DNA of 55,543 nt, taken from Alloalcanivorax gelatiniphagus (GTDB lineage Bacteria; Pseudomonadota; Gammaproteobacteria; Pseudomonadales; Alcanivoracaceae). The notes beneath the pieces were generated by a model. It saw only the letters and a program-made list of their open reading frames with translations. It made no database searches and was not told the origin of the DNA. A program made the position numbers and the translations under genes. The stretch covers positions 1 to 55,543 of the forward strand of contig NZ_VCQT01000032.1 of assembly GCF_005938655.1 (NCBI RefSeq), written 5' to 3'. The stretch's first letter is position 1; each line of letters starts with the position of its first letter. Below are positions 14,129 to 49,022 of the stretch, piece after piece.

Positions 14129-14851
14129 ATGCCCCACATCACCCTGCCCCCCTGCCTGCACGATCTGGAAACCCTTGCCCGGGGCCCCGGCCTGGTGCTG
14201 GCCCGCTGTGGTTACCGGCCGGACGCGTTCGCCGGGGACGCCTTCGCCCACGCCGGCATCCCGCTGCCGGCGGGGCTGGAAAAAGCGGTGGCCAAGCGCC
14301 GCACCGAGTACCTGGCCGGCCGGGTGTGCGCCCGTGCCGCCCTGGGCCAGGCCACCGGCCTGGAGGCGGTGCCCGCCATCGGCGACGACCGGGCACCCTG
14401 CTGGCCGGACGGGGCGGTGGGCGCCATCACCCACTCCCACGGCCAGGCCGCCGCCCTGGTGGGCCGCCATGCGGACTGGCAGGGGCTGGGCCTGGATGCG
14501 GAGCACTGGCTGGCGCCGGACCGGGCCCGGCGCCTGGCCGGGCAGCTTCTTACCCCGGCGGAACGGGAGGCGCTGGGCACGCTGGACGATACCGCCTTCG
14601 CCCGCCGCCTGACCCGGGTGTTTTCCATCAAGGAGAGTCTGTTCAAGGCGCTCTATCCGATCACCGGCGTGCGTTTTTATTTCCAGGACGCGGAGATGGT
14701 GGCGGAGGACCACATCGCGCTGCGGCGCGACCTGTCCGATCAGTGGCGGCGGGGCGCCACCGTGGAAGCCCTGTGGCGGGATGAGGACCAGGGCGTGTTG
14801 AGTTGGATCGCGGTGCCGCGGGGGAGGAAGTCATTGGGGGGTCGCGACTGA
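14129..14851 (+). CDS. 4'-phosphopantetheinyl transferase (EntD/Sfp type)
   Basis: 240 residues. Two signature blocks are present: GLGLDAEHW (GxDxE, Mg-binding) and FSIKESLFKALYP (FxxKExxxKA). The N-terminal KRRTEYLAGRVCARAAL is also typical of the EntD branch. It moves phosphopantetheine from CoA to carrier proteins such as ACP. The stop codon is supplied by a REP element (CGCGAC-TGA-AGTCGC), so the last few residues (GGRD) come from repeat sequence. Confidence 0.9.
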   Translation: MPHITLPPCLHDLETLARGPGLVLARCGYRPDAFAGDAFAHAGIPLPAGLEKAVAKRRTEYLAGRVCARAALGQATGLEAVPAIGDDRAPCWPDGAVGAITHSHGQAAALVGRHADWQGLGLDAEHWLAPDRARRLAGQLLTPAEREALGTLDDTAFARRLTRVFSIKESLFKALYPITGVRFYFQDAEMVAEDHIALRRDLSDQWRRGATVEALWRDEDQGVLSWIAVPRGRKSLGGRD

Positions 14852-14904
14852 AGTCGCTCCTACGGCGGCGGAGTTTTTCCCGTAGGAGCGACTTCAGTCG
14901 CGAT
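14841..14904. repeat. Inverted pair of REP elements (GAC/GTC type)
   Basis: GTCGCGACTGAAGTCGCTCC and CGTAGGAGCGACTTCAGTCG face each other about 20 bases apart between convergent genes. The left unit overlaps the end of the phosphopantetheinyl transferase gene and gives it its stop codon. Confidence 0.85.
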
Positions 14905-34926: not shown

Positions 34927-36155
34927 CGGCCGCTGGAATCCGCTTCCGCCCACAGCGGCTCGGGCACGCCGAACGCCAGTTCGGTGAAGAAATAGAGCAA
35001 CGCCAGCAGCGGCAGGACCACGCCGATCCAGCCGGTGAGCTGCCAGCCACCGTGGGCCTGGGACCAGCCCCCCAGCGCCGAGCCGATGGCGCCGCCGGTG
35101 AAGAAGGTGGCCATGTACAGGCCGTTGAGCCGGCCCCGGTAGCTGTCCCCCAGGCTGTAGATGGCGCGCTGCCCCAGCACCACATTGGCGGACACACCGA
35201 AATCCAGCACCACCGCCGCCACCACCAGCAGGGCCACCGCCACCACGCTGCCCGGCTCGGCGATCAAGGTCAGCAGGAAGGCCCCGCTGCAAATCAGCAT
35301 CGCCGTTACCGTGGCCGGGCGGGTCAGGCCGCCGTCGGCGAGCCGGCCGGCGATGGGCGCGGCCACCGCGCCGGCCACCCCGGCCAGCCCGAACAGGGCG
35401 ATTCCACCCTGGGAAAAGCCGAAGGCCGGGCCCGCCAGCAACAGCGGCACCGCGGTCCAGAACAGGCTGAAAGCGGCGAACAGGCAGGCCTGGTACAGGG
35501 CCCGCCGGCGCAGGATCGGCGTGGTCCGCATCAGCCGGCCCATGGACAGCAGCAGACGCCCGTAACCCACTCCCGCCGTCGGTTGCCGGCGCGGCATCAC
35601 CCGCGCCAGCACCAGGCTGAGCACCACCATCAGCAGCGACGACAGCACGAATACGGACTGCCAGCCGAACGCCTCGGTGAGCGCACTGGCCACCGGCCGC
35701 GCCAGCATGATGCCCAGCATCAGGCCGCTCATCACCGTGCCCACCACCTGGCCGCGCCGGGCCGGCGGCGCCAGGTGGGCCGCGTAGGGCACCAGAATCT
35801 GCACCGCCACCGAGCCAAAGCCGATAAACAGGGCGGCGCCCAGAAACAGGGTGGCGTGGCCGGCGAACAGGGCCGCCACCAGGGCGACGGCGGCCAGCAG
35901 GATCACCGAGATCACCAGCCGCCGGTTCTCGACCAGGTCGCCCAGGGGCACCACCAGCAGCAGCCCCACGCCGTAACCCACCTGGGTCATGGTCACGATC
36001 AGGCCGGCGGCGCCCGGCGACAGGCCCAGGGACTCGGCAATCGGCCCCACCAGGGGTTGGGTGTAGTAAATATTGGCGACGATCAGGCCACAGGCAGTGG
36101 CCAGGGTCCATACCAGCCACGCCGGCATGGACGCGGTTTCGGCGTTCGATGACAT
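34923..36155 (-). CDS. Major facilitator superfamily transporter
   Basis: 410 residues with about 12 hydrophobic segments. ANIYYTQPLVGPIAESLGLSP, GYGVGLLLVVPLGDLVENR (the MFS loop 2-3 motif, GD..ENRR) and GIMLARPVASALTE are visible. The group is drug:H+ antiporter-like; the substrate cannot be told. ATG 36155 precedes SSNAETASMPAW; no strong ribosome site was found. It lies 16 bases after the HD-GYP gene and on the same strand, so the two form an operon. Confidence 0.85.
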   Translation of the reverse strand: MSSNAETASMPAWLVWTLATACGLIVANIYYTQPLVGPIAESLGLSPGAAGLIVTMTQVGYGVGLLLVVPLGDLVENRRLVISVILLAAVALVAALFAGHATLFLGAALFIGFGSVAVQILVPYAAHLAPPARRGQVVGTVMSGLMLGIMLARPVASALTEAFGWQSVFVLSSLLMVVLSLVLARVMPRRQPTAGVGYGRLLLSMGRLMRTTPILRRRALYQACLFAAFSLFWTAVPLLLAGPAFGFSQGGIALFGLAGVAGAVAAPIAGRLADGGLTRPATVTAMLICSGAFLLTLIAEPGSVVAVALLVVAAVVLDFGVSANVVLGQRAIYSLGDSYRGRLNGLYMATFFTGGAIGSALGGWSQAHGGWQLTGWIGVVLPLLALLYFFTELAFGVPEPLWAEADSSGR

Positions 36156-36171
36156 TGCTTGCTGAGGTCCG

Positions 36172-37740
36172 TTAACGGAAAGGCGCGGGGTCAACCACAT
36201 CGAGCTGTTCCGGGTCCAGGGCGACGCGCGCGTAATCGCGCCACACTCCGGCGTCCAGAAACAGCCGGTAGAGGTCCGGATCAAGGTGCTGATTATCACG
36301 CATGCGTTGCATGATGCCCAGGGCCTCGGAGATTTTCAGCGGCGTTTTGTAGGGGCGCTCACGGGCGGTGAGCGCCTCGAACACGTCGGCGATGGCCATG
36401 ATGCGCGCCGGAATCGACATCTGCTCGCGGGTCAGGCCGCGGGGAAAACCGCTGCCGTCCATGCGCTCGTGGTGGCCGCCGGCGTACTCCGGCACGCGCC
36501 GCAGTTTGCGCGGAAACGGCAGCGACTCCAGCATCTCCAGGGTCACGTCCATATGGCTGTTGATGATTTCCCGTTCCCGGTCGGTGAGGGTACCCCGGGT
36601 GATGCACAGGTTGGCCACCTCATCGTCGTTGAGCAGCGGCCGGACCTGCCCGTGGGCGTCGGTCCAGGGCCGCGCGGCGATCCGCCGCACCCGCTCGGTG
36701 TCGGCGGCGGCCATGGCCTCGCCACCTTTATTGATACGCTCCAGAAACGCCAGATCGGATTCCAGCCCGGCGATGTCCTGCTCCAGGCGGCGCCGGTGTT
36801 CCGGCTCCCGGGCCGGCTCGCTGAGCGACTCCCGTTCGTAGCGCCGCTCGGCTTCCACCCGCAGCGCCGAGAAACGCGCCGCCACCAGCTCGATGCGGTC
36901 GTGCAGCCCGTGGAGCTTGGTGGCCTTGTCGAGCACCGAATCGGGAATCGCCAGCTTGCCGCAGTCGTGCAGCCAGGCCGCCACCCTCAGTTCGTACCAC
37001 TCGTCCTCGTCGAGCTGGAATGAGGAGAAGGTGCCGCCATCGTCGCAGGCGGCCCGGGCCAGTAATTCGGTCAGAAGAGGCACCCGCTCGCAGTGCGCGC
37101 TGGTGTGTGAGCTTTTCGCGTCAATGGCGCGGGCAAACACCCGCACGAAGGCGTCCAACAGGTCCTTGAGTTCCTGCACCAGCAGCAGATTATTGAGGGC
37201 GATGCCGGCGTAGCCGCCGAGGGCGCCGAGCAGAGTGCGGGTGCGCGCCGGAAACGGGCCGGGCCCGCTCTCGCCCCGGGCGTTGACCAGCTGCAGCACG
37301 CCCACCACCCGGCCCTCATGGTTGGTCAGCGGCACCAGCAGCAGGGACACCACCCGCGTCACCAGGCCGGGCACCAGCCGCGCCCGGTCGTCCTCCGGCA
37401 GGGCCGAGGGGTCCGCCAGATGCAGCATGGCGCCGTCTTCCACCACCCGCACCGCCGGATGGTCCCGGTGGGCCGCGTCCAGCGGCAGGCGCGGCAGGTC
37501 CGGGCCCGGGGCGGCGCTGCCCTCCTCGCCGGCGGTGATCTGACGCACGCATTCCAGCCACTCGTCCCGGGTATCGTCGCGCCGCAACCAGAGCACGCCG
37601 GCTTCGGCACGGGCCAGCTCAAGAGCCTCTTCCAGCACCGTGCGGGTCAACGGCGCCAGATCGCTTTGCGCATTAATCTGCCGGGCCACCCGCAACAGCG
37701 GCGGCAACCGGGTGCCGGGCACCTGTTCCAGCTTGTTCAT
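36172..37740 (-). CDS. GAF / HD-GYP phosphodiesterase
   Basis: 522 residues. A GAF domain (~20-185) with VLWLRRDDT and LVPLTNHEGRVVGVLQLVN precedes an HD-GYP domain. Metal ligands are in SAHCERV, AAWLHDCGKLAIPD, INSHMD and GGHHERMDGSGFP. The GYP triplet is GFP here, and about 150 residues with a coiled-coil-like charged stretch separate HD from the GFP block, longer than in the standard form. These enzymes degrade cyclic di-GMP. It is opposed in function to the GGDEF gene nearby. Confidence 0.88.
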   Translation of the reverse strand: MNKLEQVPGTRLPPLLRVARQINAQSDLAPLTRTVLEEALELARAEAGVLWLRRDDTRDEWLECVRQITAGEEGSAAPGPDLPRLPLDAAHRDHPAVRVVEDGAMLHLADPSALPEDDRARLVPGLVTRVVSLLLVPLTNHEGRVVGVLQLVNARGESGPGPFPARTRTLLGALGGYAGIALNNLLLVQELKDLLDAFVRVFARAIDAKSSHTSAHCERVPLLTELLARAACDDGGTFSSFQLDEDEWYELRVAAWLHDCGKLAIPDSVLDKATKLHGLHDRIELVAARFSALRVEAERRYERESLSEPAREPEHRRRLEQDIAGLESDLAFLERINKGGEAMAAADTERVRRIAARPWTDAHGQVRPLLNDDEVANLCITRGTLTDREREIINSHMDVTLEMLESLPFPRKLRRVPEYAGGHHERMDGSGFPRGLTREQMSIPARIMAIADVFEALTARERPYKTPLKISEALGIMQRMRDNQHLDPDLYRLFLDAGVWRDYARVALDPEQLDVVDPAPFR

Positions 37741-38012
37741 GACGTCATTCCGTTGTCAGCCACGCCTAGGGAGCCTCCCGTGAACGCCGATCGGGCCCCG
37801 CGGAGCGGCCAGTGATCGAGCCCCGGCCGGCGGCGGCAACAAACCACGGCAACCCGCTTGAGACCACGCGGAATGCGACAGGCGTGATGCGGAAGCTCCC
37901 TAGCATAGGCACAGGCTGTCATGGTGGTAAAGCATGCTCGCTTGAACGGTGCCGGTCGATTGCCTACCATTCGTCGGTTCCGCAACCCTCAGCCTCGGAC
38001 CCCATTTCATCC
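37741..38012. other. Divergent spacer with long thrS leader
   Basis: This 272-base stretch lies between the divergent starts of the HD-GYP gene and thrS. It holds no gene. An imperfect inverted repeat, CTAGGGAGCCTCC at 37766-37778 and GGAAGCTCCCTAG at 37891-37903, matches at 12 of 13 positions and could form a long-range stem. I see no clear -35/-10 pair, no Zur-type operator and no tRNA-like fold that I can trust. Confidence 0.4.
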
Positions 38013-39926
38013 ATGAGCGTGCAATACAGACTGCCCGATGGGGCAAATATGGAGTTTGATCAGCCGGCCTCCGGATTGGAGATCGCCGAGCGGATCAGCA
38101 AAAAACTCGCCAAGCAGGCCCTGGCCGTCAAGGCCGACGGGCACCTTACCGACGTCTATCTGCCGCTCACCGATGGAACCACCGTGGAAATCATCACCCG
38201 GGATCACGACGATGCCCTGGAGTTGATCCGCCACGATGCCGCCCATGTCATGGCCGAGGCGGTGCAAGAGCTGTTTCCCGATACCCAGGTGACCATCGGG
38301 CCGACCATCGAGAACGGCTTCTATTACGACTTCTACCGGGAAGAACCCTTCACCCCGGAGGATCTCACCGCCATCGAGAAGCGCATGCAGGAAATCGTGC
38401 GCCGCAACGAGCAGATCCGCCGGGAGGTCTGGGACCGGGACGAAGCGGTCAGCTTCTTCCTGGAAAAAGGCGAGGACTTCAAGGCGGAGATCATCCGCGA
38501 CCTGCCCGCCGACCAGGAAGTGTCCCTGTACCGCCAGGGCGACTTTATCGACCTGTGCCGGGGCCCGCACCTGCCCGCCACCAGCAAGCTGGGTGACGGC
38601 TTCAAGCTGATGAAGGTGGCCGGCGCCTACTGGCGCGGCGACGCCAACAACGCCCAGCTGCAGCGCGTCTACGGCACCGCCTGGCGGGACAAGAAGGAAC
38701 TCAACGCCTACCTGCAGCAGCTTGAGGAGGCCGCCAAGCGGGACCACCGCAAGCTGGGTAAGGAGATGGATCTGTTCCATCAGCAGGAAGAGGCCCCGGG
38801 CATGGTGTTCTGGCACCCGCGCGGCTGGGCCATCTGGCAGAAGGTGGAGCAGTACGTGCGCAAGGTCTACCGCAACAGCGGTTACCAGGAAGTGCGCGGC
38901 CCGCAGATCATGGATGTGAGCCTGTGGAAACGCTCCGGGCACTGGGACAACTACCAGGAAAACATGTTCTTCACCGAGTCCGAGAAACGGACCTACGCGG
39001 TGAAGCCCATGAACTGCCCGGGCCACGTACAGATCTACAACGCCGCCCTGCACAGCTACCGGGACCTGCCGATCCGCTACGCGGAATTCGGCGGCTGCCA
39101 CCGCAACGAGCCCTCCGGTGCCCTGCACGGCATCATGCGGGTGCGCGCCTTTACCCAGGACGACGGCCATATCTTCTGCACCGAGGACCAGGTGGAAGGG
39201 GAAGTCACCGCCTTCCACAAACAGGCCATGGCGGTGTACGCCGACTTCGGCTTTGAGAACATCTCGGTGAAGCTGGCCCTGCGCCCGGAAAAACGCATCG
39301 GCACCGATGAAGCCTGGGACAAGGCGGAAAACGGCCTGCGCGCGGCGCTCAGCAACGCCGGCGTGGAATGGGAGGAACTGCCCGGCGAGGGCGCCTTCTA
39401 CGGTCCCAAGATCGAATACCACCTCAAGGATTCCATCGGCCGCGCCTGGCAGATGGGCACCGTGCAGTTCGACCCGATGATGCCCGAGCGGCTCGACGCG
39501 GAGTACGTGGACGAGCACTCCCAACGGCAGCGGCCGATCATGCTGCACCGGGCCATCGTCGGCTCCATGGAACGCTTTATCGGCATTCTCATCGAGCACC
39601 ACGCCGGCCATCTGCCGCTGTGGCTGGCGCCGGTGCCGGTGGTGATCGCCACCATCACCAACGCCGCCGACGACTATGCCCAGACCGTGAAGGAACAGCT
39701 GGAAGCCGCCGGCGTGACCGTGGAAATGGACCTGCGTAACGAGAAGATCGGCTACAAGGTGCGCGAGCACTCCCGCGCCAAGATCCCGGTGATCCTGGTA
39801 CTCGGCAAGCAGGAAGCGGAGGAGCGCCAGGTGGCGATCCGCCGGCTGGGTTCCAAGGACACCGAAACCCTGGCCCTGGACCAGGCGGTGGCCGACCTGG
39901 CCGCCGCCACCCGGCTGCCGCTCTGA
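38013..39926 (+). CDS. thrS: Threonyl-tRNA synthetase
   Basis: 637 residues, full length. A TGS domain starts the protein ([19 protein letters not shown]), followed by the editing domain ([17 protein letters not shown] and the [11 protein letters not shown] block), the class II catalytic core and the anticodon domain. The zinc ligands known from E. coli are all present: Cys in MNCPGH, His in DDGHIFC and His in MLHRAIVGS. It charges tRNA-Thr. In most gammaproteobacteria thrS is followed by infC-rpmI-rplT; here it is followed by hisI and cysS, so this may be a second copy. No clear ribosome site is visible before ATG 38013. Confidence 0.93.
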
Positions 39927-39934
39927 CGGAGCGA

Positions 39935-40019
39935 CCGTAGGAGCGACCGTAGGAGCGACTTCAGTCGCGATCAGCGCTTGCGGTAGCAGAGAGCAATCGC
40001 GACTGAAGTCGCTCCTACA
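39935..40019. repeat. Inverted pair of REP elements with a partial duplication
   Basis: CCGTAGGAGCGA is repeated directly before the full unit CCGTAGGAGCGACTTCAGTC, and an inverse unit AATCGCGACTGAAGTCGCTC follows 24 bases later. It separates thrS from hisI and may stabilise or weaken expression of the distal genes. Confidence 0.85.
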
Positions 40020-40056
40020 AATACCTACGGGGCCAGCCCCAGCGTTTGGAGGCACC

Positions 40057-40485
40057 ATGTTCAAAGAGAACGAACAGCAGGCGGAAGGGTTCAGCGTGGC
40101 GCTGGGCGCGGCGCTGGACGACCTGGCGTTCAACGATGCCGGCCTGGTGCCGGTGATCGCCCAGCAGCACGACAGCGGCGAGGTGCTGATGTTCGCCTGG
40201 ATGAACCGGCAGGCCATCGAGGAGACCCTGCGCACCGGGCGGGTCTGTTATTACTCGCGCTCCCGGGGCAAGCTGTGGCGTAAGGGGGAGTCTTCCGGCC
40301 AGGTGCAGATGCTGCGCGAACTGCGCGTGGACTGCGACGGTGACGTGCTGCTGGCGCGGGTGGACCAGACCGGCCCGGCCTGCCACACCGGCCGTCGCGA
40401 CTGTTTCTACTGGAAGCTGGATGGCGAGAAGGCGACCATCGACAAAGCACCGCTGATCGACCCGGCGGACCTTTACAAGAACTGA
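40057..40485 (+). CDS. hisI: Phosphoribosyl-AMP cyclohydrolase
   Basis: 142 residues, monofunctional (no HisE part). [39 protein letters not shown] is the family core. The metal-binding cysteines are present: [11 protein letters not shown] and [14 protein letters not shown]. It opens the adenine ring in histidine synthesis and needs zinc and magnesium. hisI normally sits in a his operon or next to hisE-tatA; here it is between thrS and cysS. GGAGG lies six bases before ATG. Confidence 0.92.
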
Positions 40486-40507
40486 CCACGGACGAAGTGC
40501 CTGTTCC

Positions 40508-41893
40508 ATGCTGACATTGCACAACACCCTCACCGGACAGAAGGACGTTTTCCAGCCGCTGGACCCGGAGCGCGTGACGCTCTATGTGTGCGGCCCCACG
40601 GTCTATAACTACGTCCATATCGGCAACGCCCGCCCGGTGGTGGTGTTCGACGTGCTCTACCGGCTGCTGGCGCGGCTTTATCCCAAGGTGGTCTACGCCC
40701 GTAACATCACCGATATCGACGACAAGATCATCAACGCCTGCGCCGACTCCGGCGAGACCATGGAGGCCCTTACCGGCCGGTTCACCGCCGCCTTCCGCGA
40801 GGACATGGCCGCCCTGGGCGCCCTGGAGCCGTCGATCACGCCGCTGGCCACCGACCATATCGGCGACATGATCGCCATGATCGAAACCCTGATCAGCAAG
40901 GGCCATGCCTATGAGTCCCAGGGCCATGTGCTGTTCGCGGTGCAGTCCATGCCCGACTACGGCAAGCTCTCCGGGCGCAACCTGGAAGACATGCTGGCCG
41001 GCGCCCGGGTGGAAGTGGCCGACTACAAGCGCCACCCCGGCGACTTCGTGCTGTGGAAACCCAGCAGCGACGACCAGCCCGGCTGGGACTCCCCCTGGGG
41101 GCGCGGCCGCCCGGGCTGGCACATCGAATGCTCGGCGATGATCCACCGCCACCTGGGCGACGTGATCGACATCCACGGCGGCGGCCAGGACCTGATTTTC
41201 CCGCACCACGAAAACGAGATCGCCCAGGGCTGCTGCGCCCACGGCACCGAATACGTGCGCTACTGGATGCACAACGGCTATATCAATATCGACGGCGAGA
41301 AGATGTCCAAGTCCCTGGGCAACTTCCGGCTGGTGCGCGACCTGCTGCAGCACTATCCCGGCGAGGTACTGCGCTTCGCCCTGCTGTCCAGCCACTACCG
41401 CTCGCCGCTGAACTTTTCCGTGGAGCTGCTGGAGCAGGCACGCAGCAGCCTGGATTCGCTTTACTACGCGCTGCTGGGCCGGGGCCGCATCGTGCGCGCC
41501 GACCCGGATTACCGGCTGCCCGACGACCACCCGGTGGTCACCGCCCTGCTCGACGACCTGAACACCTCCGAGGCGATCAGCGCCCTGCACGCGGTGGCCG
41601 CCCGCCTGAACAAGGCAGAGCCGGACGACAAACCGGCCCTGAAGGCGGAGCTGCTGGCCGGCGCCGGCCTGCTGGGCCTGCTCGACGCGGACCCCACCGG
41701 CTGGTTCCAGAACAAGCAGGGCGGCGGCGAGGACGATCTGGACAACGCCACCATCGACGCCCTGGTGGCGGAGCGTAACCAGGCCAAGAAAGACCGGGAT
41801 TTCGCCCGCGCCGACGACATCCGCGACCAGCTCAAGAACGCCGGCATCCAGCTCGAGGACACCCGCGAAGGGACCCGCTGGACCCGCGGCTGA
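40508..41893 (+). CDS. cysS: Cysteinyl-tRNA synthetase
   Basis: 461 residues. [18 protein letters not shown] has the first zinc cysteine and the HIGN motif; [34 protein letters not shown] carries the other Cys, His and Glu ligands; KMSKSLGNF is the second class I signature. All zinc ligands appear intact. It charges tRNA-Cys in the cytosol. It follows hisI by 22 bases and is probably in one transcript with thrS and hisI. Confidence 0.95.
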
Positions 41894-41926
41894 GGGCCGG
41901 CCGGCGCCGGAGCCCGCGCTGGTTTT

Positions 41927-41935
41927 TGTTATAGT
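41927..41935 (+). promoter_or_regulatory. Extended -10 promoter with TGTTATA half-site
   Basis: TGTTATAGT fits the extended -10 form (TGnTATAAT, one mismatch) 50 bases before the yidD GTG start. TGTTATA is also one half of the gammaproteobacterial Zur operator (inverted TGTTATA...TATAACA), but the second half (TGTTCGG) does not match. The promoter is likely; the Zur link is weak. Confidence 0.4.
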
Positions 41936-41955
41936 GTTCGGTTTATGATGGCTCG

Positions 41956-42216
41956 TTGAATTCACCTCCGTCTGCGGATGTCGCCGTGAAACCCGTTTTG
42001 CTTGCCGGTCTGCGGTTTTACCAACTGGTGCTCAGCCCCTGGGTGGGCAACCAGTGCCGCTTCTATCCGACCTGCTCGGAGTACGCCCGGCAGGCGGTGG
42101 AAACCCATGGCAGCCTGCGCGGCAGCGCCCTGGCGGCCAAACGGCTGTGCAAGTGCCACCCCTGGCATCCCGGCGGCTTCGACCCGGTGCCCGGCCGGGA
42201 AGCCGACCATGACTGA
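41956..42216 (+). CDS. yidD: YidD-family membrane protein insertion factor
   Basis: 86 residues, or 76 if GTG 41986 starts it. [28 protein letters not shown] and [15 protein letters not shown] are the YidD signature with its conserved cysteines. YidD assists YidC and normally lies between rnpA and yidC; here it is after cysS and before zinc uptake genes. The 3' end overlaps the next gene by 8 bases. Alternative: an orphan second copy. Confidence 0.9.
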
Positions 42217-42499
42217 GCGCCGCCCCCACCTTCGTCTGTGGCTCGCCGCCCTGCTGCTTACGGCGCAGACCCTGGTGGCCTGGCACGGACCCAGTCATAT
42301 TCTCGACGGCCATGGCCACGGCCCGGTGGCTCAGCAGGACTGCCAGGCACTGCACGGCCATGGCCTGGCCTGCGCGCCGACCGCTGATCTGCCGCCGGCA
42401 CGCTTCACCCCCGCGCTCGCCGTTACGCCTCCGGTGGGCGCCCCCGATATCCTGCTGCCCCGGGTCCACCCCGCCCGCGCCCCACCGGTTTTCTCCTGA
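42209..42499 (+). CDS. Small His-rich secreted protein preceding the zinc receptor
   Basis: 96 residues. A hydrophobic N-terminus ([16 protein letters not shown]) is followed by [27 protein letters not shown], a His-rich stretch with two cysteines, and a Pro-rich end. It looks like the DUF2946-type small proteins found next to metal uptake genes; the family match is not certain. It could bind zinc in the periplasm. ATG 42209 overlaps the end of yidD, which suggests coupled translation. Confidence 0.65.
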
Positions 42500-42574
42500 T
42501 ACCAACCCTTTGACGTTGTTCACACGGACCTTACCGGCATAACACCCCGGCCGTGCCTGTATCCAGGAGAGACC

Positions 42575-44647
42575 ATGAAACGCGCAATTTTCCCCATGGC
42601 GGCCGCCACCCTGGCCGCCATGGGCGGGTCAGTGGCGTTTGCCCAGCCCGCTGATTCCAACGAAGCCCGCCTCGACGCGGTGGAAGTGTCCGCCCTGCCC
42701 CTGGGCAGCGATGCCAACCTGACCCCAGCCTCCTACGACCTGCTGGAAGACGACCTGCTGTTCCAGCAAAGCGAAGCGACCCTGGGCGATACCCTCAATG
42801 GCCTGCCCGGCGTGCACGCCGACACCTTCGGCGGCGGCAGCAGCCGGCCGGTGATTCGCGGCCAGACCGCCCCCCGGGTCAGCGTGCTGTCCGACGGCGC
42901 CCAGTTGTTCGATATGTCCGCCATCTCACCGGACCACGCCACCACCGTGGAGCCCATGCTCAGCCGCAAGGTGGAAGTGCTGCGCGGCCCGTCCACGCTG
43001 CTGTACGGCGGCGGCGCCATTGGCGGCGTGGTCAACGTGCTCGACAACAAGATTCCCACCCGCATGCCCGACGGGCCGGTGGAGGGATTCTTCGAAGGCC
43101 GCGGCAATACCGTGGCCGATGAAGGCGCCGCCGCCTTCGGCCTGACCACCCGTGCCGGCGACAACCTGGCCCTGCACGTGGAAGGGGCACGCCGGGACGC
43201 GGACGACTACGAGGTCAACGGTTTCACCGAGAAGACCATCGACGGCACCTGGGCGAAAAGCGACAACGGCAGCGTCGGCCTGTCCTGGATCGGTGACCGG
43301 GGTTATCTGGGCCTGGCCTATTCCTACCGGAGCGATCAGTACGGCCTGCCCGGCCACAGCCACGAGTTCGAGGGCTGCACCGCCAATGGCTCCAGCCTGG
43401 AATGCGCCGAGGAAGAACACGACCACGAGCATGGCGAACACGAAGCCCCGTTCGTGGACCTGGACAGCCGCCGGGTGGATCTGCGCGGCGAGTACCGGCA
43501 GCCGGTGGCCGGCATCGAGGCGGTACGCCTGCGCGCCAGCCACACGGATTATCGCCACCACGAGATCGAGGAAGGCGCCATCGGCACCACCTTCCGCCAC
43601 CGGGGCGTGGACGCCCGGGTGGAAGCGGAGCACGCACCGGTGCTGGGCTGGCGCGGCACCTTCGGCACCCAGTTCACCGACGGGCAGATCGAAACCAGCG
43701 GCGAGGAAGCGGTGGTTCCAAAAACCGATACCCGCACCGCGGCCGTGTTCGCGGTGGAGCGCTACCGCTTCAATGAGCGCTGGCAGTTGGAAGCCGGTGC
43801 CCGCCTGGAACACCAGAAGCTGGACCCGGATGACGCTGACCGGCCGCTGCCTTCCTACAGCGAGTCCGCCACCTCCCTGTCCACGGCGCTGACCTGGGCG
43901 TTCCGCCCGGACTACAACGTGTCCGTGTCCCTGGCCCGGTCCGAAAGGCTGCCCCAGGCCCAGGAGGTGTATGCCCGGGGCGTGCACCTGGCCACCAACA
44001 CCTATGAGTGTGGCCTGCTGGCGGACACCTTCACCTGCGGCGGCGCCGGCAACGACTCCAGCCTGAAAACCGAGACCTCCTACAACGCAGGCATCAACCT
44101 GCGCAAGGTGAGCGGTGACCTGACCTTCAACCTGGGCCTGTTCCACAACCGGGTGGACGACTACGTCTACGCCCGCACCCTGGATCAGATCGAGGAATTC
44201 CGCCTGATCAAATACAGCCAGGCGGACGTGGAATTCACCGGCGCCGAAGCGGAGGCCACCTACCAGTGGACCGACCGCGTCTCCACCACCCTGTTCGGCG
44301 ACACCGTGCGCGCCGAGTTCAAGGACGGCGGCGACAGCCTGCCGCGCATCCCGGCCCACCGGCTGGGCGCCCGGGTAAACACCTTCTGGCGCGCGTTCGA
44401 CGGCGAAGTGGAGTTCTACCGGGTGTTCGCCCAGGACGACATCGCCGCCTTCGAGACCCGCACCCCGGGCCACGACATGCTCAATGCCACGGTGAGCTAC
44501 ACCTTCACCGGCAAACCCCAATACAACGTCTTCCTGCGGGCCAGCAATCTGCTCGGCGAGGAAGTGTGGAACCACGCGTCCTTCCTGGCGCGCACCGTCC
44601 CGGAACCCGGTCGCAACCTGACCGCCGGCGTGCGCATGACCTTTTGA
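42575..44647 (+). CDS. ZnuD-like TonB-dependent zinc receptor
   Basis: 690 residues with a signal peptide (AAATLAAMGGSVAFA). The plug has LGDTLNGLPGVHADTFGGGSSRPVIRGQ and the barrel follows from ~residue 165 to the terminal F (MTF end). The first long loop has a His/Asp/Glu-rich segment (EEEHDHEHGEHE) flanked by two cysteines (EGCTANGSSLEC), as in ZnuD of Neisseria. It should move zinc across the outer membrane using TonB energy. GGAGA lies six bases before ATG. It is followed 34 bases later by the AztD-like gene. Confidence 0.87.
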   Translation: MKRAIFPMAAATLAAMGGSVAFAQPADSNEARLDAVEVSALPLGSDANLTPASYDLLEDDLLFQQSEATLGDTLNGLPGVHADTFGGGSSRPVIRGQTAPRVSVLSDGAQLFDMSAISPDHATTVEPMLSRKVEVLRGPSTLLYGGGAIGGVVNVLDNKIPTRMPDGPVEGFFEGRGNTVADEGAAAFGLTTRAGDNLALHVEGARRDADDYEVNGFTEKTIDGTWAKSDNGSVGLSWIGDRGYLGLAYSYRSDQYGLPGHSHEFEGCTANGSSLECAEEEHDHEHGEHEAPFVDLDSRRVDLRGEYRQPVAGIEAVRLRASHTDYRHHEIEEGAIGTTFRHRGVDARVEAEHAPVLGWRGTFGTQFTDGQIETSGEEAVVPKTDTRTAAVFAVERYRFNERWQLEAGARLEHQKLDPDDADRPLPSYSESATSLSTALTWAFRPDYNVSVSLARSERLPQAQEVYARGVHLATNTYECGLLADTFTCGGAGNDSSLKTETSYNAGINLRKVSGDLTFNLGLFHNRVDDYVYARTLDQIEEFRLIKYSQADVEFTGAEAEATYQWTDRVSTTLFGDTVRAEFKDGGDSLPRIPAHRLGARVNTFWRAFDGEVEFYRVFAQDDIAAFETRTPGHDMLNATVSYTFTGKPQYNVFLRASNLLGEEVWNHASFLARTVPEPGRNLTAGVRMTF

Positions 44648-44681
44648 CGCGATCCACTGAAAAACGAATTCGGAGACCACG

Positions 44682-45989
44682 ATGAAACGCTATTTTTCCC
44701 CCACCGGCGCCGCCCTGCTGGCGGCATCGGTGCTGCTTGCCGCCTGCAACAACGACACCGGCAGCACCGAGCTGCCCGGCGACCACCACGACCATGACCA
44801 TGAGCACGGCGAAGCCGCCGGCCGGCTGGTGTTCACCCACGCCGACGGCGCCAACTCCCGGGTCTATGTGCATGATCTGGAAAGCGGCCAAACGGTGGGC
44901 GACTTCGCCCTGGTGCACCCGGCCACCGGCGTCTACACCAGCCCCGAAGGCCGCTATGCGGTGATCGTGCAGCGCGACAACGACCAAGTGGAGTTCCTGG
45001 ACAGCGGCATCTACCCGCACGGCGACCATGTCCACGAAGACGAGCCGGCCCTGCTCGGCTTCACCCTGAACGGCGTGGCGCCCACCCACTACCGCAGCAA
45101 CGGTGAGTACGCCGCGCTCTACTTCGATGGCGACAACGGCGCCGGTCAGATGAGCAGCTTCCAGCTGTTCAGCGACGAGAGCCTGGCCGACGGTGGCGTG
45201 CTGGCGTCCCAGACCCTGGACACTGCCCACCATGGCGTGGCCGAGCCCCTGGACGGCCTGGTGCTGGCCAGCCACGCCAGCACCAGCGGCGGTTCCGCCG
45301 ACGGCGTCACGGTGTTCGAACTGCACGGCGATCACTTCCACGGCGAGGGCGAGCTGGCCACCGCCTGCCCGGGGCTGCACGGCGCCGCCACCCACGGGGC
45401 CTATAGCGTGTTCGGCTGCCAGGACGGCGTGCTGGTGGCGGAGCTGCACGGCGACCACTTCCACGACGCCAAGGTGGCGGTGCCGGAGCGGATCGCCACG
45501 GTGCTGGGTCATCCGGACGTGGAGACGCTGATCGGTGTGTCCTACCCGGACGGCAACCTGTACGCCATCGATCCGGAGGCGGGCACCGCCACCCAGGTGG
45601 ACTGGCGGGACGGCGCCGTGGACGGCGGCGGTGACCCGGTGACGCCGAAGGCCCAGGCGTTCGATGCCCACGGTGAGCATCTGCTGGTGCTGGACAGCGA
45701 GGGCAGTCTGCATGTGCTGGAGACCTCTGACTGGTCCCATCGCGCCGCCCTGGCCCTGCTCAGCACGGTTCCCAGCGCCGGCCCGGCACCGGCCCTGGCG
45801 GTGAGCGGCGCCGGTGATCAGGCATACGTCAGCGACCCGGCGGCCCAGGCCCTGCACATCATCGACCTGGAAGCGCTGTCCGTGGAGACCGAGGATCTGG
45901 ACTTCGCCCCCACCGGGCTGGCCTGGACCGGCGTCGTGGGGGACCATGACCACGGCGGGGAAGACGGCGAGCACGATCACGAGCATTGA
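44682..45989 (+). CDS. AztD-like zinc metallochaperone lipoprotein
   Basis: 435 residues. The lipobox LLAAC anchors the protein. The N-terminal DHHDHDHEHGE and C-terminal DHDHGGEDGEHDHEH runs are His-rich; between them repeated short blade units with HGDHFHGEG and HGDHFHDAK suggest a beta-propeller. This matches AztD, the periplasmic zinc chaperone that hands zinc to the AztC binding protein in Paracoccus. No AztABC transporter lies nearby. GGAG precedes ATG. The gene shares a transcript with the TonB receptor. Confidence 0.82.
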   Translation: MKRYFSPTGAALLAASVLLAACNNDTGSTELPGDHHDHDHEHGEAAGRLVFTHADGANSRVYVHDLESGQTVGDFALVHPATGVYTSPEGRYAVIVQRDNDQVEFLDSGIYPHGDHVHEDEPALLGFTLNGVAPTHYRSNGEYAALYFDGDNGAGQMSSFQLFSDESLADGGVLASQTLDTAHHGVAEPLDGLVLASHASTSGGSADGVTVFELHGDHFHGEGELATACPGLHGAATHGAYSVFGCQDGVLVAELHGDHFHDAKVAVPERIATVLGHPDVETLIGVSYPDGNLYAIDPEAGTATQVDWRDGAVDGGGDPVTPKAQAFDAHGEHLLVLDSEGSLHVLETSDWSHRAALALLSTVPSAGPAPALAVSGAGDQAYVSDPAAQALHIIDLEALSVETEDLDFAPTGLAWTGVVGDHDHGGEDGEHDHEH

Positions 45990-46006
45990 TCGGCGTCACA
46001 CCCCTT

Positions 46007-46065
46007 TCGCGACTGAAGTCGCTCCTACAGTACGATACCCGCCGTAGGAGCGACTTCAGTCGCGA
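46007..46065. repeat. Inverted pair of REP elements (GAC/GTC type)
   Basis: CGCGACTGAAGTCGCTCCTACAG and CCGTAGGAGCGACTTCAGTC lie 14 bases apart downstream of the zinc chaperone gene and before the small barrel gene. Confidence 0.85.
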
Positions 46066-46070
46066 TACAC

Positions 46071-46114
46071 CGCGTCGCCCCTCTTGCCGCGTCGCCCCCT
46101 CTTGCCGCGTCGCC
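46071..46114 (+). repeat. Tandem 17/18-base repeat, 2.5 copies
   Basis: CGCGTCGCCCCTCTTGC (17 bases) is followed by an 18-base copy with one extra C and a partial third copy CGCGTCGCC. It adjoins the REP pair and ends just before TTGACGCGGC, upstream of the outer-membrane barrel gene. Confidence 0.7.
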
Positions 46115-46176
46115 ATTGACGCGGCTTTTCACTACAATGAGGCTCGTCCTCAAAGCAGTGGAACTCGGAGTCTCTC

Positions 46177-46707
46177 ATGAAACGATGGCTGTTGGCCGCG
46201 GGCCTTGCCCTGCCCTTTTCCGTTCTTTCCGCCCCGGCCCTGGCGGCGGGTTACGCCGGCCTGGATTACGTCAGCGCGGACATCAGTCCCGATCGCGGCG
46301 GCAGCGCCGATCCGTCCGCTCTGCAATTCAAGTTCGGCAGCTGGATCAACCGCAACGAAACCCTGGGCGGCGAGCTGCGCCTGGGCCTGGGCATCGGCGA
46401 CGACAGCCTGGGCGGCGGCGTTGACGTGGAAATCGACCGCTACTACGGCGCCTATTTCCGTGGCCAGTTTCCCAACACCCTGCCGGTGCGTCCCTACGGC
46501 CTGATCGGCCTGACCCGCGTGGAAACCACCGTCGACTATCCGGACGGCGGCTCCAGCGGCGACAACTACAGCGGCCTGTCCCTGGGCCTGGGCGCCGACA
46601 TCAGCCTCACCGACGTGGTGTTCCTGAGCGTGGAATACCTGCGCGCGGTGGACAGCGGCGGTGATGAGATCAACAACATCGGGGTCGGCCTGAACGGCAG
46701 GTTCTAA
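46177..46707 (+). CDS. Small outer-membrane beta-barrel protein
   Basis: 176 residues. Signal peptide LLAAGLALPFSVLSAPALAA, then alternating strands rich in Tyr/Gly/Leu (GYAGLDYVSADIS, LQFKFGSWI, GGELRLGLGIG, RPYGLIGLTRVE) and a terminal aromatic residue (GLNGRF), which fits an 8-stranded barrel of the OmpW/OmpA-like fold. Role not known; its place next to zinc genes may be chance. GGAG lies seven bases before ATG. A terminator follows. Confidence 0.8.
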   Translation: MKRWLLAAGLALPFSVLSAPALAAGYAGLDYVSADISPDRGGSADPSALQFKFGSWINRNETLGGELRLGLGIGDDSLGGGVDVEIDRYYGAYFRGQFPNTLPVRPYGLIGLTRVETTVDYPDGGSSGDNYSGLSLGLGADISLTDVVFLSVEYLRAVDSGGDEINNIGVGLNGRF

Positions 46708-46735
46708 GCTGCAAGCTGCAAGCTGCAAGCTGCAA
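46708..46735 (+). repeat. Heptamer tandem repeat GCTGCAA x4
   Basis: Four perfect copies of GCTGCAA directly follow the stop codon of the barrel gene, before a strong hairpin. A related sequence (TGAAGCTTGAGGCTTGAAGC) follows on the other side of the hairpin at about 46800-46819. Confidence 0.85.
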
Positions 46736-46744
46736 GCCCAGAAA

Positions 46745-46773
46745 GCATGACGGCCCCTTCGGGGCCGTCATGC
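46745..46773. terminator. Strong bidirectional hairpin with UUCG loop
   Basis: GCATGACGGCCCC-TTC-GGGGCCGTCATGC is a perfect 13-bp stem on a C(UUCG)G-type loop between the convergent barrel gene and folE2. It has no long T run, but stem strength makes termination likely. Confidence 0.75.
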
Positions 46774-46825
46774 TGTTCAGAGGTGTTAAGCCTGTAGCCT
46801 GAAGCTTGAGGCTTGAAGCTCCCCG

Positions 46826-47788
46826 TCAGGGGATAGGCAGGTACCCGCCGTCCACCTGCTTGGTGACGATCGCCACCGCGTTGTGGGCGTGCAGGCTTTC
46901 CAGGTGGTTCACGCGCAGCCAGAAATCCTTGTAGCAGGGCTGCGGGTCCAGGGCCTGCTTGAGGCGCCGGGCGGCGTCTTCGCAGAACATCAGGTTCTTA
47001 CCGTTGAGCTTGGCGAATTCCTGCTCGTCCACCCGTTTCACGGCGGTCTGCACCGGCGTCTTCAGCGCCCCTTCGATGGTGTCGATCAGGGCGGTGATCG
47101 GAAACGCCTCGTCGCAGCCGGCATCCAGCAGCACCCGCACCTGCGCCACGGAGCGCTGGCTGTGGGGGGTGGCCATGATGCCTTCCTCGGTGCCCAGCCA
47201 TTCGAACACCTTGTCCACGTCCACCTGGCTGTCCTTGCCGAAGTCCTCGCGGAACTGTTCCTGGATCAGTTGCCGGGCCAGGGCCGCGGAACAGGGGCAG
47301 GTGGAGGAATACGGCACTTCCACCGCCAGTTCGATGCGCAGGCCATCCGGGGCCATGGTGGCCTTGATGGTGACCGGGTAGCTCTTCCAGCCGGCGTAGC
47401 TGCTCTTCAGCGCCGGGCGGCGCATGGAATACTCGAAATCGAACTGCACGAACGCCTTGTCGCTGAGGCCGTCGTGGGTTTCCAGGAAGTTGTTCAGCAG
47501 CTGTTCGATGGAGTGGGCGCTCACCGAGTGATCGCCGAACGTCTCTTCCAGCATCAGATACAGCCGGGACATGTGAATGCCCTTGGCGTCCGGGTTGGAC
47601 AGGCTCACATAGGCCTGAATGGAGGTGCTCACCGGGCGCTCACCGGCCAGGGTATCGCTGATCCGGGCCGGCAGATGGATTTCACTCATGCCCACCCAAT
47701 CCAGGGTGCTGTGCAGGTGGTCCACCATGGAATTGGTCGCCACATCGGGCATGGATTTGGTGGTATCCGCACCACTATCGCGCTTCAT
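46826..47788 (-). CDS. folE2: GTP cyclohydrolase IB (zinc-independent)
   Basis: 320 residues. The family signature [14 protein letters not shown] holds the catalytic cysteine; [11 protein letters not shown] and [11 protein letters not shown] are other conserved blocks, with the conserved Glu and His of FolE2. It makes dihydroneopterin triphosphate from GTP, feeding folate and PTPS/QueD, and works with Mn or other metals instead of zinc. In many bacteria folE2 is induced by zinc lack through Zur; its place beside zinc genes fits. GGAG lies seven bases before the ATG. An extended -10 promoter is upstream. Confidence 0.95.
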
Positions 47789-47885
47789 GGGAATCTCCGT
47801 AGGGACGACGGCGGCGAATCATGACGCCGATCAGGTGAAGGGAATGCCAACCTGACTGTCATCGACCGATCACAAAGGGACGCGA

Positions 47886-47894
47886 AGTGTAGCA
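47886..47894 (-). promoter_or_regulatory. Extended -10 promoter of folE2
   Basis: On the minus strand TGCTACACT (TGnTATAAT-like) lies about 100 bases before the folE2 ATG. I found no Zur dyad around it. A -35 box is not clear. Confidence 0.35.
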
Positions 47895-47968
47895 GAATCA
47901 CCGGCACAAATAGACCTTTCGGGACGCGGGCTTTGGCAATGGCGCCGACAGGCCGGAACTATCAGAAA

Positions 47969-47989
47969 CGGGCCGCCCATAGCGGCCCG
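47969..47989 (-). terminator. Short hairpin after the TPR gene
   Basis: CGGGCCGC / GCGGCCCG forms an 8-bp stem with a five-base loop; on the minus strand TTTCTGATAG follows. It probably ends the TPR gene transcript. Confidence 0.45.
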
Positions 47990-47994
47990 CCGGG

Positions 47995-48897
47995 CTAGAG
48001 CAGCGATTCCGGGTCGTCTTCCGGGCGGCCCACCACCTCCTGGAAGCGCTCCAGCTCGCGCAGCGGCACGAACATTTCCTCCGCCCGGGCGTGGCGCCGC
48101 AGGGCCTCGGAAATGCTCACCGCCTGCTCCAGGTCACGCAGGGCGTTGTCGTTTTCACCCAGGCCGGCCCAGGCACAGGCGCGCTGATAGAGAGCGTGGG
48201 CGTTGTCCTCGTCCACCTCCAGCACCCGGTCGCACAGGCTCAGCGCCCAGCGCTGCTCGCCCAGCTCCAGGGCGGCATCGGCCTTCCAGGCCAGCGCCTC
48301 CGGGTCGTCCGGGCGCAGCTCCAGGATCCGATCGTAGAGCTCGATCTTCTCCTTGTAGCTGCCTTCCTTGGTGGCTTTCAGCCACAGGCTGTGGATCTCG
48401 TTGGTGCGCTCGATCTCTTCCTGGTTCTCGGCGATGGTGCGGGATTTCTGGCGCAGCTCCTGCTCCAGATCCACCAGCCGCGATTCGTATTCCACGGTCA
48501 GCCGCGACATTTCCTTCTCCGCGTAGACGCGGATGTTGTCCTTGAGATCGCGGATCGTGGACCAGCCCACCAGCGCCAGAATCGAGGCGGCGCCGGCGAT
48601 CAGGTAGAAGAAGTAGGTCACCGTGTTGGTGGCGTAGCCCATGGCCTTGTCAGCCACCTCCAGCTCCCGGTCGGTGACGATGCGGTTCATGTCGTTGCGG
48701 TATTCCATCATGTCCTGACGGATGGACCGCAGCTCGCCGAGAATCCAGTTTTCCCGGAACTGGGAAATCACCGGACCCTTCTCGATCTCGCTCTGCGCTT
48801 CCGGGCGGGACTCGGCGGGCTCCGACTGGGCCGTGGCCATGGCACCCATGGTCATCAACAGCACCCAGATTCCCACCTTCAGGCATGGCTTGAACAA
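47995..48897 (-). CDS. Membrane-anchored coiled-coil TPR protein
   Basis: 300 residues from TTG 48897, which has AGGAAG eight bases before it; ATG 48933 gives a longer version without such a signal. Signal peptide (VLLMTMGAMATAQ), a second hydrophobic helix at about residues 92-112 (YFFYLIAGAASILALVG), a coiled coil at ~115-165 (EKEMSRLTVEYESRLVDLEQELRQK), then TPR-like helices (YDRILELRPDDPEALAWKADAALELGEQ, ALYQRACAWAGLGENDNALRDLEQA). No family name is clear. The layout suggests a protein-protein scaffold at the membrane. Confidence 0.75.
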   Translation of the reverse strand: MFKPCLKVGIWVLLMTMGAMATAQSEPAESRPEAQSEIEKGPVISQFRENWILGELRSIRQDMMEYRNDMNRIVTDRELEVADKAMGYATNTVTYFFYLIAGAASILALVGWSTIRDLKDNIRVYAEKEMSRLTVEYESRLVDLEQELRQKSRTIAENQEEIERTNEIHSLWLKATKEGSYKEKIELYDRILELRPDDPEALAWKADAALELGEQRWALSLCDRVLEVDEDNAHALYQRACAWAGLGENDNALRDLEQAVSISEALRRHARAEEMFVPLRELERFQEVVGRPEDDPESLL

Positions 48898-49022
48898 GAC
48901 CGCTTCCTCTTTATTGCTGATTCGCCACGGCAACGGCCGTGGCCGGGAAAAACCGCGAGTATGGTGGCATTAAGACCCGGTGTTCGCCAGCCTGAACACG
49001 GCAAACGCGAACCGGAGCGCGC

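Follow-up and report, generated by a model that had tools for sequence, protein, structure and literature searches.

A mosaic threonyl-tRNA synthetase gene in Alloalcanivorax gelatiniphagus points to intragenic exchange of the catalytic core

We analysed a 55,543-nucleotide stretch of the Alloalcanivorax gelatiniphagus genome (contig NZ_VCQT01000032.1; hereafter the window), which carries thrS, the gene for threonyl-tRNA synthetase (ThrRS). The draft assembly comprises 50 contigs with a total of 4.2 Mb and has a completeness rating of 100%, and the open reading frames (ORFs) of the window were listed between 34 and 52 kb. thrS (38013..39926, + strand; 637 aa) is the sole ThrRS gene found (TIGR00418, 709 bits against a cut-off of 384), and it is a mosaic. 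Its 5′ part (38013..38702, +), coding for the TGS and editing domains, resembles that of same-genus relatives and is taken to be native, while a break scan and informative sites delimit a tract (38703..39812, +) that codes for a catalytic core of another type, here called B, and for most of the anticodon-binding domain. The notable feature of the locus is thus what sequence comparison presents as a domain-scale exchange of homeoalleles in ThrRS. Downstream follow hisI (40057..40485, +; single PF01502 match, NF000768 above cut-off, alignable to 1ZPS) and cysS (40508..41893, +; TIGR00435 above cut-off, alignable to 1LI5), which encode the sole phosphoribosyl-AMP cyclohydrolase and the sole cysteinyl-tRNA synthetase found, and yidD for a membrane insertion factor (41956..42216, +; PF01809 and TIGR00278 above cut-off). 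Beyond a group of ORFs with a likely role in zinc uptake lie a gene for a small outer-membrane beta-barrel protein (OMP) kept in the family (46177..46707, +; PF13505) and folE2, the sole GTP cyclohydrolase I gene found (46826..47788, −; NF010200 above cut-off). Profile and family matches confirmed all genes named in a sequence-only reading of this DNA, namely thrS, hisI, cysS, yidD, folE2 and genes for a ZnuD-like receptor and an AztD-like protein.

Genome-wide searches placed thrS, cysS and hisI at one position each in the draft genome. Three further PF00587 matches were present besides thrS and, going by frame length, are probably SerRS, ProRS and HisRS. FolE (PF01227) was not found in this genome; a control search detected it in 11 of 14 genomes. 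Copy numbers of cysS, hisI and folE refer to A. gelatiniphagus alone. For thrS, 43 of the 46 family genomes gave exactly one match (E ≤ 1e-40), six of these 43 being one-contig assemblies, and G010, G014 and G030 gave none. Since they are the sole copies found, thrS, hisI, cysS and FolE2 are working copies and not spares. The sequence-only reading had taken them for a set of zinc-limitation paralogues and had named, as one half of what would speak against it, that thrS, hisI and cysS are the only copies; only copies are what the whole-genome search returned. HisI contains Cys93, Cys109 and Cys116, which we take to be zinc ligands, and CysS carries motifs corresponding, in the alignment to 1LI5, to those that presumably hold the zinc ligands in E. 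coli. In ThrRS, all of the 146 sequences aligned have Cys, His and His at the zinc-ligand columns Cys334, His385 and His511, respectively, so that a loss of zinc ligands in this enzyme was rejected.

The gene order is well conserved: thrS-hisI-cysS was kept in all 20 relatives fetched, with yidD next after it in 19, a divergent HD-domain gene ahead in 17, and folE2 downstream within the stretch in 13. What we see is sole copies of thrS, hisI and cysS in a fixed order, that is, what appears to be an old Alcanivoracaceae housekeeping block. As had been noticed before, thrS sits outside its usual infC cluster. In A. gelatiniphagus, infC is located on contig C6 with rplT and pheS behind it, and the ~1.1 kb examined in front of it contains no thrS; in G137 (L195), a genome of the same order, the arrangement is thrS-infC-rpmI-rplT-pheS (neighbours named by eye in both cases).

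The comparison with two close relatives, G020 and G026, locates the mosaic. In blastn, identity to G020 was 88% for 36001-37751, 78% for 37899-39929 and 91% for 40048-48997, and G026 gave similar values. Resolved in 60-base steps, identity to G020 was 80-96% from 37901 to ~38740 and 56-80% from there to ~39930; it was near nil in the gap between thrS and hisI and then 83-98% from hisI onward. The gap before thrS also differs. At the protein level, ThrRS was 88% identical to that of G020 over residues 1-60, 92% over 61-240, 58% over 250-530 and 64% over 531-637 (88-92% over the first two segments when G026 is included), and the corresponding values for G009, which belongs to another genus, were 80, 91, 99 and 88%. 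The neighbouring genes do not share this pattern: the upstream HD-domain gene, hisI, cysS, yidD, znuD, aztD, the OMP gene and folE2 are 90-98% identical to their counterparts in G020 and a His-rich ORF 83%, against 71% for thrS, so that an exchange of other genes of the block was rejected. CysRS is 97% identical to that of G020 and G026.

The limits of the tract were estimated from 468 informative sites, scored as G020/G026-like or as like the type-B genomes of g2, the remainder fitting neither. Codons 1-240 hold 66 G020/G026-like and 23 type-B-like sites, and codons 241-600 hold 46 and 281, respectively. A maximum-chi-square scan, limited to codons 110-520, placed the break at codons 231-248 against six congeners, and in a shuffle test with G020 only, none of 300 shuffles reached the observed value. 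The 5′ edge of the tract thus lies between codons 231 and ~260, and in all 15 pairs of a B and an A sequence scanned, the best break fell between codons 228 and 273. Structures of E. coli ThrRS catalytic fragments start at the equivalent of residue 243, indicating that the break is close to a domain border. Beside the 3′ edge of the tract, the gap between thrS and hisI contains an inverted repeat resembling a repetitive extragenic palindromic (REP) element (39949..40018, strand undefined; arms at 39949 and 40005). Such REP-like repeats, GAAGTCGCTCCTAC and its complement, occur in the window at 39949-40018, 46015-46057, 14850-14895 and 50123; the second of these pairs lies between aztD and the OMP gene.

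Two core types were distinguished among the relatives. Cores were typed in 40 of the 43 Alcanivoracaceae genomes with a thrS match; the three left out (G036, a fragment, G041 and G045) encode ThrRS that is 66-71% identical over its whole length to that of A. gelatiniphagus. Core B was found in seven of the 40 (A. gelatiniphagus, G009, G006, G002, G034, G035 and G031) and core A in 33. A second family of the same order, f29, was represented by 11 genomes in the order sample, three with core B and eight with core A. The core of A. gelatiniphagus is 98-99% identical to those of G009, G006 and G002, 90-94% to those of G034, G035 and G031, and 91-93% to those of the three f29 genomes, as opposed to 57-60% for the 33 other typed Alcanivoracaceae. 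Among the pairs tabulated, core identity was 87-99% within B and 54-60% (~58%) between A and B. When 10 B and 41 A sequences were compared, all 37 sites that separate the types without exception fell in residues 262-529 and none outside. The editing domain, on the other hand, tracks taxonomy (92% identity to G020, 77% to G252). Both types occur as one thrS per genome, in the same gene order.

Phylogenetic trees gave the same picture. The outgroup consisted of 18 sequences chosen from 146 aligned, and the groups tested were named after the data had been seen. In the editing-domain tree, the Alcanivoracaceae were joined (99/98) regardless of core, and the approximately unbiased (AU) test rejected type B as one clade (p-AU 6.8e-5). 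In the core tree, the B sequences of both families were joined (100/97) beside a Nevskia-type group and then Dyella/Luteibacter, with A on a long branch; here the AU test rejected the Alcanivoracaceae as one clade (p-AU 1.7e-56) as well as a clade of A. gelatiniphagus, G020 and G026 (p-AU 6.5e-58). In a CysS tree of 46 rows, A. gelatiniphagus grouped with G020 and G026, both of type A (99/98). Eight changes of core type were required on this tree, at least five of them forced by well-supported branches; 84 of 500 random labelings did as well as the real core types, indicating that, in this sample, the type of core hardly depends on ancestry.

Beyond these two families, the closest B-like cores that we found were 80-87% identical, with editing domains at 49-66%; among 369 genomes sampled evenly across the class, in which f29 was not listed, identity reached 79% at most. 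Xanthomonad sequences among L062-L136 had cores ~78-86% identical to that of A. gelatiniphagus and editing domains at either ~48-50% or 58-66%, which suggests that exchange of ThrRS modules extends beyond the Alcanivoracaceae.

A rival explanation for the block is that the only thrS, hisI and cysS of the family go back to paralogues for zinc limitation, which took over after the primary genes had been lost. The absence of thrS from the infC cluster fits this, as do the zinc-uptake operons that flank the block, on one side or the other depending on the relative. The editing domain is also closer to betaproteobacterial and many xanthomonad ThrRS (58-68%) than to the infC-linked ThrRS of G137 (~50%), but some xanthomonad editing domains likewise reach only 48-50%. 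There is no Zur box here, and gene order alone cannot reveal former regulation. We consider such a take-over unlikely, though still worth keeping in mind.

The age of the B core was assessed at four-fold sites. Across 45 pairs within B, mean identity was 59.9% in the core and 62.8% in the editing domain. Because the core has diverged about as much as the editing domain, B seems to be an old form that several genera have retained, as opposed to a recent sweep. Between A. gelatiniphagus and G009, four-fold sites were 65% identical in the B core and 70% in the editing domain; we therefore rejected the idea that the B core passed recently between this lineage and genomes like G009. A plasmid-borne source of either core was also considered, and no vehicle was seen: in tblastn against plasmids, the best matches listed were 62.5% (A) and 69% (B) identical.

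Since the flanks and the editing domain of A. gelatiniphagus are those of its A-type sisters, we infer that its own lineage changed to B. Taking the locus as a whole, we regard it as highly probable that it combines an old housekeeping block with a separate zinc module, and that thrS is a recombinant produced by an intragenic A-to-B exchange of the core. Two alternative catalytic cores, A and B, occur in Alcanivoracaceae and f29, one per genome. According to this model, an intragenic homologous exchange would have put the B core and most of the anticodon-binding domain in place of the resident A, and the TGS and editing domains and the neighbouring genes would have stayed native. Homologous recombination at the fixed locus is the presumed route.

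Several observations weigh against this model. Codons 601-637 hold 11 G020-like and 13 B-like sites, which leaves the 3′ edge of the tract diffuse, near codon 600. The breaks in the f29 pairs are weak, with chi-square values of 14-26. No direct donor of the B core was found, and a close relative of G009 is not the donor. The tree of B cores is roughly parallel to the backbone tree, with the B cores of the Alcanivoracaceae joined at only 84/47, and at the family level A may be the invader. Finally, ancestors could have carried two full-length thrS genes, the mosaic having arisen by differential loss combined with gene conversion of the N-terminal part. Long coexistence of two genes would fit the old synonymous divergence within types. 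Against this, a single thrS was found in each of the 43 family genomes that gave a match, six of which are in one contig, both types occupy the same locus, and five or more rounds of loss plus conversion would have to be assumed. An ancestral gene pair is thus quite improbable.

The threonine, ATP and zinc site residues that were checked are the same in A and B, except that one A sequence has Phe for Tyr313, and Gly463 is kept in both types. At the equivalent of E. coli position 316, B has Asn and A has Asp; at the equivalent of 489, B has Met and A has Leu. Position 316 is among the obafluorin contacts (PMC11252418), and mutations at 489 raise the Ki of borrelidin (PMC4389257). Neither L489M nor A316N, however, made E. 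coli ThrRS resistant to obafluorin (PMC11252418), and in the other sequences Met489 was present in 91 of 95 and Asn316 in 87 of 95. For these two reasons, selection by inhibitors is offered here as a hypothesis only and, given the E. coli result, we make no claim of drug resistance for either core. Our leading guess is that natural core-binding ThrRS inhibitors explain the persistence of both cores. In its full form, which we put forward tentatively and with more doubt than confidence, the ThrRS core would be a long-lived polymorphism that spans genera and two families. Shifting selection by borrelidin- or obafluorin-like compounds would maintain it, and recombination where the editing domain meets the catalytic domain would switch the core, leaving all but the targeted module unchanged. 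One of two ThrRS matches in another genome (G287:C1:4705053-4706912; L171, L190) has Ser at Gly463 and Met at Leu489, the signature of the obafluorin immunity ThrRS ObaO.

Between yidD and the OMP gene lie three ORFs of a different kind. The first, missed by the sequence-only reading, encodes a His-rich protein of 96 aa with a signal-like N-terminus and overlaps the yidD stop (42209..42499, +); the product may bind zinc. tblastn matches at the same place, with 37-83% identity, were obtained in seven of 20 relatives. The second encodes a ZnuD-like TonB-dependent receptor (42575..44647, +) with a His/Asp/Glu-rich loop at residues ~261-290. It aligned with ZnuD in the Protein Data Bank (4RDR; E 5.5e-116) and scored below the cut-off of NF038289 (672.4 against 950 bits; model kind exception). 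The third encodes an AztD-like zinc chaperone in lipoprotein form (44682..45989, +; lipobox LLAAC by eye), which matched AztD (6CK1; E 1.2e-17) with conserved His and Cys and likewise stayed under the cut-off of NF038015 (106.1 against 400 bits; model kind exception). Its residues H136, H184 and H233 align with His124, His167 and His218 of site 1 in Paracoccus denitrificans AztD, and C229 and C246 with the disulfide Cys214 and Cys231 (site 1 and disulfide as given in PMC6689063). Of site 2 (His99, His102, Asp104 and the C-terminal His408), HGDH is found at 113-116, Asp104 falls in an alignment gap, and the C-terminus is His-rich. No ATP-binding cassette (ABC) genes, and hence no aztABC, were found between yidD and folE2. 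By homology, the pair are likely zinc-uptake proteins, in agreement with the sequence-only reading.

The ZnuD-like and AztD-like pair was found at the locus in 11 of 20 relatives (12 loci counting the window) and was not found there in the other nine; across the family, 29 of 46 genomes encode an AztD-like protein. These data support the view that the His-rich ORF and the genes for the two proteins form a separate movable zinc-uptake module, which some genomes carry between yidD and the OMP gene and others lack. At the locus of G002 (L045), the His-rich ORF is kept, with no znuD or aztD match between yidD and the OMP gene. In G025 (C1:933719-934900; L022, L037), two matches to the aztD-like gene fall within a single open frame of 410 aa, which has an internal deletion of ~33 residues relative to the A. 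gelatiniphagus protein (query 221-253).

We also searched for Zur sites. PF01475 matched two proteins in the A. gelatiniphagus genome. The weaker match adjoins a COG0523 GTPase gene on contig C41 and has a perfect TGTTATANNNTAACA palindrome in front; it was read as Zur for these two reasons. Four further sites have one mismatch to the Zur pattern: one on C18 near a TonB-receptor-like gene, two on C24, before a His-rich secreted protein with ABC genes and near an unassigned ORF, and one on C32 with no obvious zinc gene beside it (all by eye). With up to two mismatches, both strands summed, the genome gave 27 matches against 34 for the reversed control; since such matches are no commoner than the control, only strong sites were counted. 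The first Zur matrix was built from four A. gelatiniphagus sites alone, and the second, which added sites from relatives, is partly circular for these; the first found the same sites in the relatives as the second. In the window, there was no Zur palindrome at up to two mismatches and none above the matrix threshold, and the two three-mismatch matches compare with a chance mean of 0.98. Upstream of yidD lies a half Zur box, TGTTATA, with the right half unmatched (41927..41941, strand undefined), followed by TATGAT at 41944. As neither the consensus nor the four-site matrix gave a palindrome here beyond this half-site, Zur control of the locus in A. gelatiniphagus was rejected.

Strong Zur sites were found at six of the 12 module loci, upstream of yidD in G009, G006, G034 and G035 and of znuD in G028 and G019. 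None was found at the module locus of A. gelatiniphagus, G020, G026, G023, G003 or G031. TATGAT precedes yidD in A. gelatiniphagus, G020, G026 and G023, and in A. gelatiniphagus and G020 it looks as if a Zur site had decayed. Three genomes without the module, G032, G033 and G037 (L052, L053, L054), have a perfect Zur-like palindrome, TGTTATCATATAACA, ~145-185 bases upstream of thrS, between thrS and a divergent operon of outer-membrane-protein and metal-ABC-like genes (by eye). Judging by this palindrome, ThrRS might be zinc-controlled in these genomes, and its place beside a metal-ABC-like operon indicates that the neighbourhood has a recurrent zinc connection.

The sequence-only reading had proposed that thrS, hisI, cysS and folE2 form a Zur-controlled, zinc-saving paralogue set (thrS2, hisI2, cysS2, folE2), expressed with zinc importers when zinc is scarce. 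The adjacent ZnuD-like and AztD-like proteins and the Zur sites of the relatives, at the module and upstream of thrS, speak for it, and the ThrRS, CysRS and HisI paralogues described for Zur regulons in PMC2770081 keep their zinc ligands. That paper mentions Alcanivorax solely in the legend of a supplement, which names Alcanivorax borkumensis among the aligned genomes. Yet the genome has no second thrS, cysS or hisI and no FolE that we could find, thrS is single across the family in a conserved place, and the window lacks a Zur palindrome although a perfect one occurs elsewhere in the genome. The remark that COG0523 is lacking held for the ORFs between 34 and 52 kb, the part of the window checked, and the genome has a copy on C41. 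A zinc-limitation paralogue island is therefore not supported and very improbable; what the data support is a movable zinc-uptake module beside sole housekeeping genes. An assembly chimaera or contamination, conceivable in a draft of 50 contigs, is hardly credible, as the B core occurs with a native backbone in six other family genomes and three f29 genomes, including the one-contig G034 and G073.

Whole-gene exchange is known for essential synthetases. In the present case, we find repeated change of the catalytic module alone, in a gene and neighbourhood that are otherwise vertical. A. gelatiniphagus and G020/G026 represent a natural experiment, being close relatives in which one essential enzyme has different cores, and with natural A and B enzymes the driver of homeoallele switching in aminoacyl-tRNA synthetases (aaRS) becomes testable. 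Moreover, whole-protein ThrRS trees mix two histories.

Of the known systems, the Zur-regulated COG0523-linked clusters resemble the locus in that their regulons include ThrRS, CysRS, HisI and FolE2, but there the genes are extra copies under Zur (PMC2770081), whereas at this locus each is the sole copy and a Zur palindrome is lacking. AztABCD of Paracoccus and Citrobacter shares with it an AztD homologue in which the three site-1 His and both disulfide Cys align (PMC6689063); in contrast, aztABC is absent from the locus, and the protein is a lipoprotein beside a ZnuD-like receptor. Neisseria ZnuD (4RDR) can be aligned over plug and barrel and also has a His-rich loop, although the receptor described here remains below the NCBIfam ZnuD cut-off. 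ObaO is, like type B, an alternative bacterial ThrRS with Met at the Leu489 position, but it is encoded in addition to another ThrRS and has Ser in place of Gly463, and type B is a single copy that keeps Gly463 (PMC11252418). For the two archaeal ThrRS types, which are ~29% identical, recombination was held unlikely in PMC3191353. We found no report of a domain-scale exchange of the ThrRS core in the open PMC literature, which is weak evidence of absence. The closest parallel is provided by the aaRS homeoalleles, described in PMC3191353 for TyrRS in bacteria and for ThrRS and SerRS in archaea: divergent forms of an essential synthetase, usually one per genome and scattered within higher taxa, which in the case of TyrRS occupy the same syntenic place, as here. 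Their distribution conflicts with organismal phylogeny, and so does that of the two cores, as indicated by the changes on the CysS tree and by the AU tests. The difference is one of scale: whole genes are replaced there, whereas in thrS the change is limited to the catalytic core and part of the anticodon-binding domain, with the break at an intragenic domain border.

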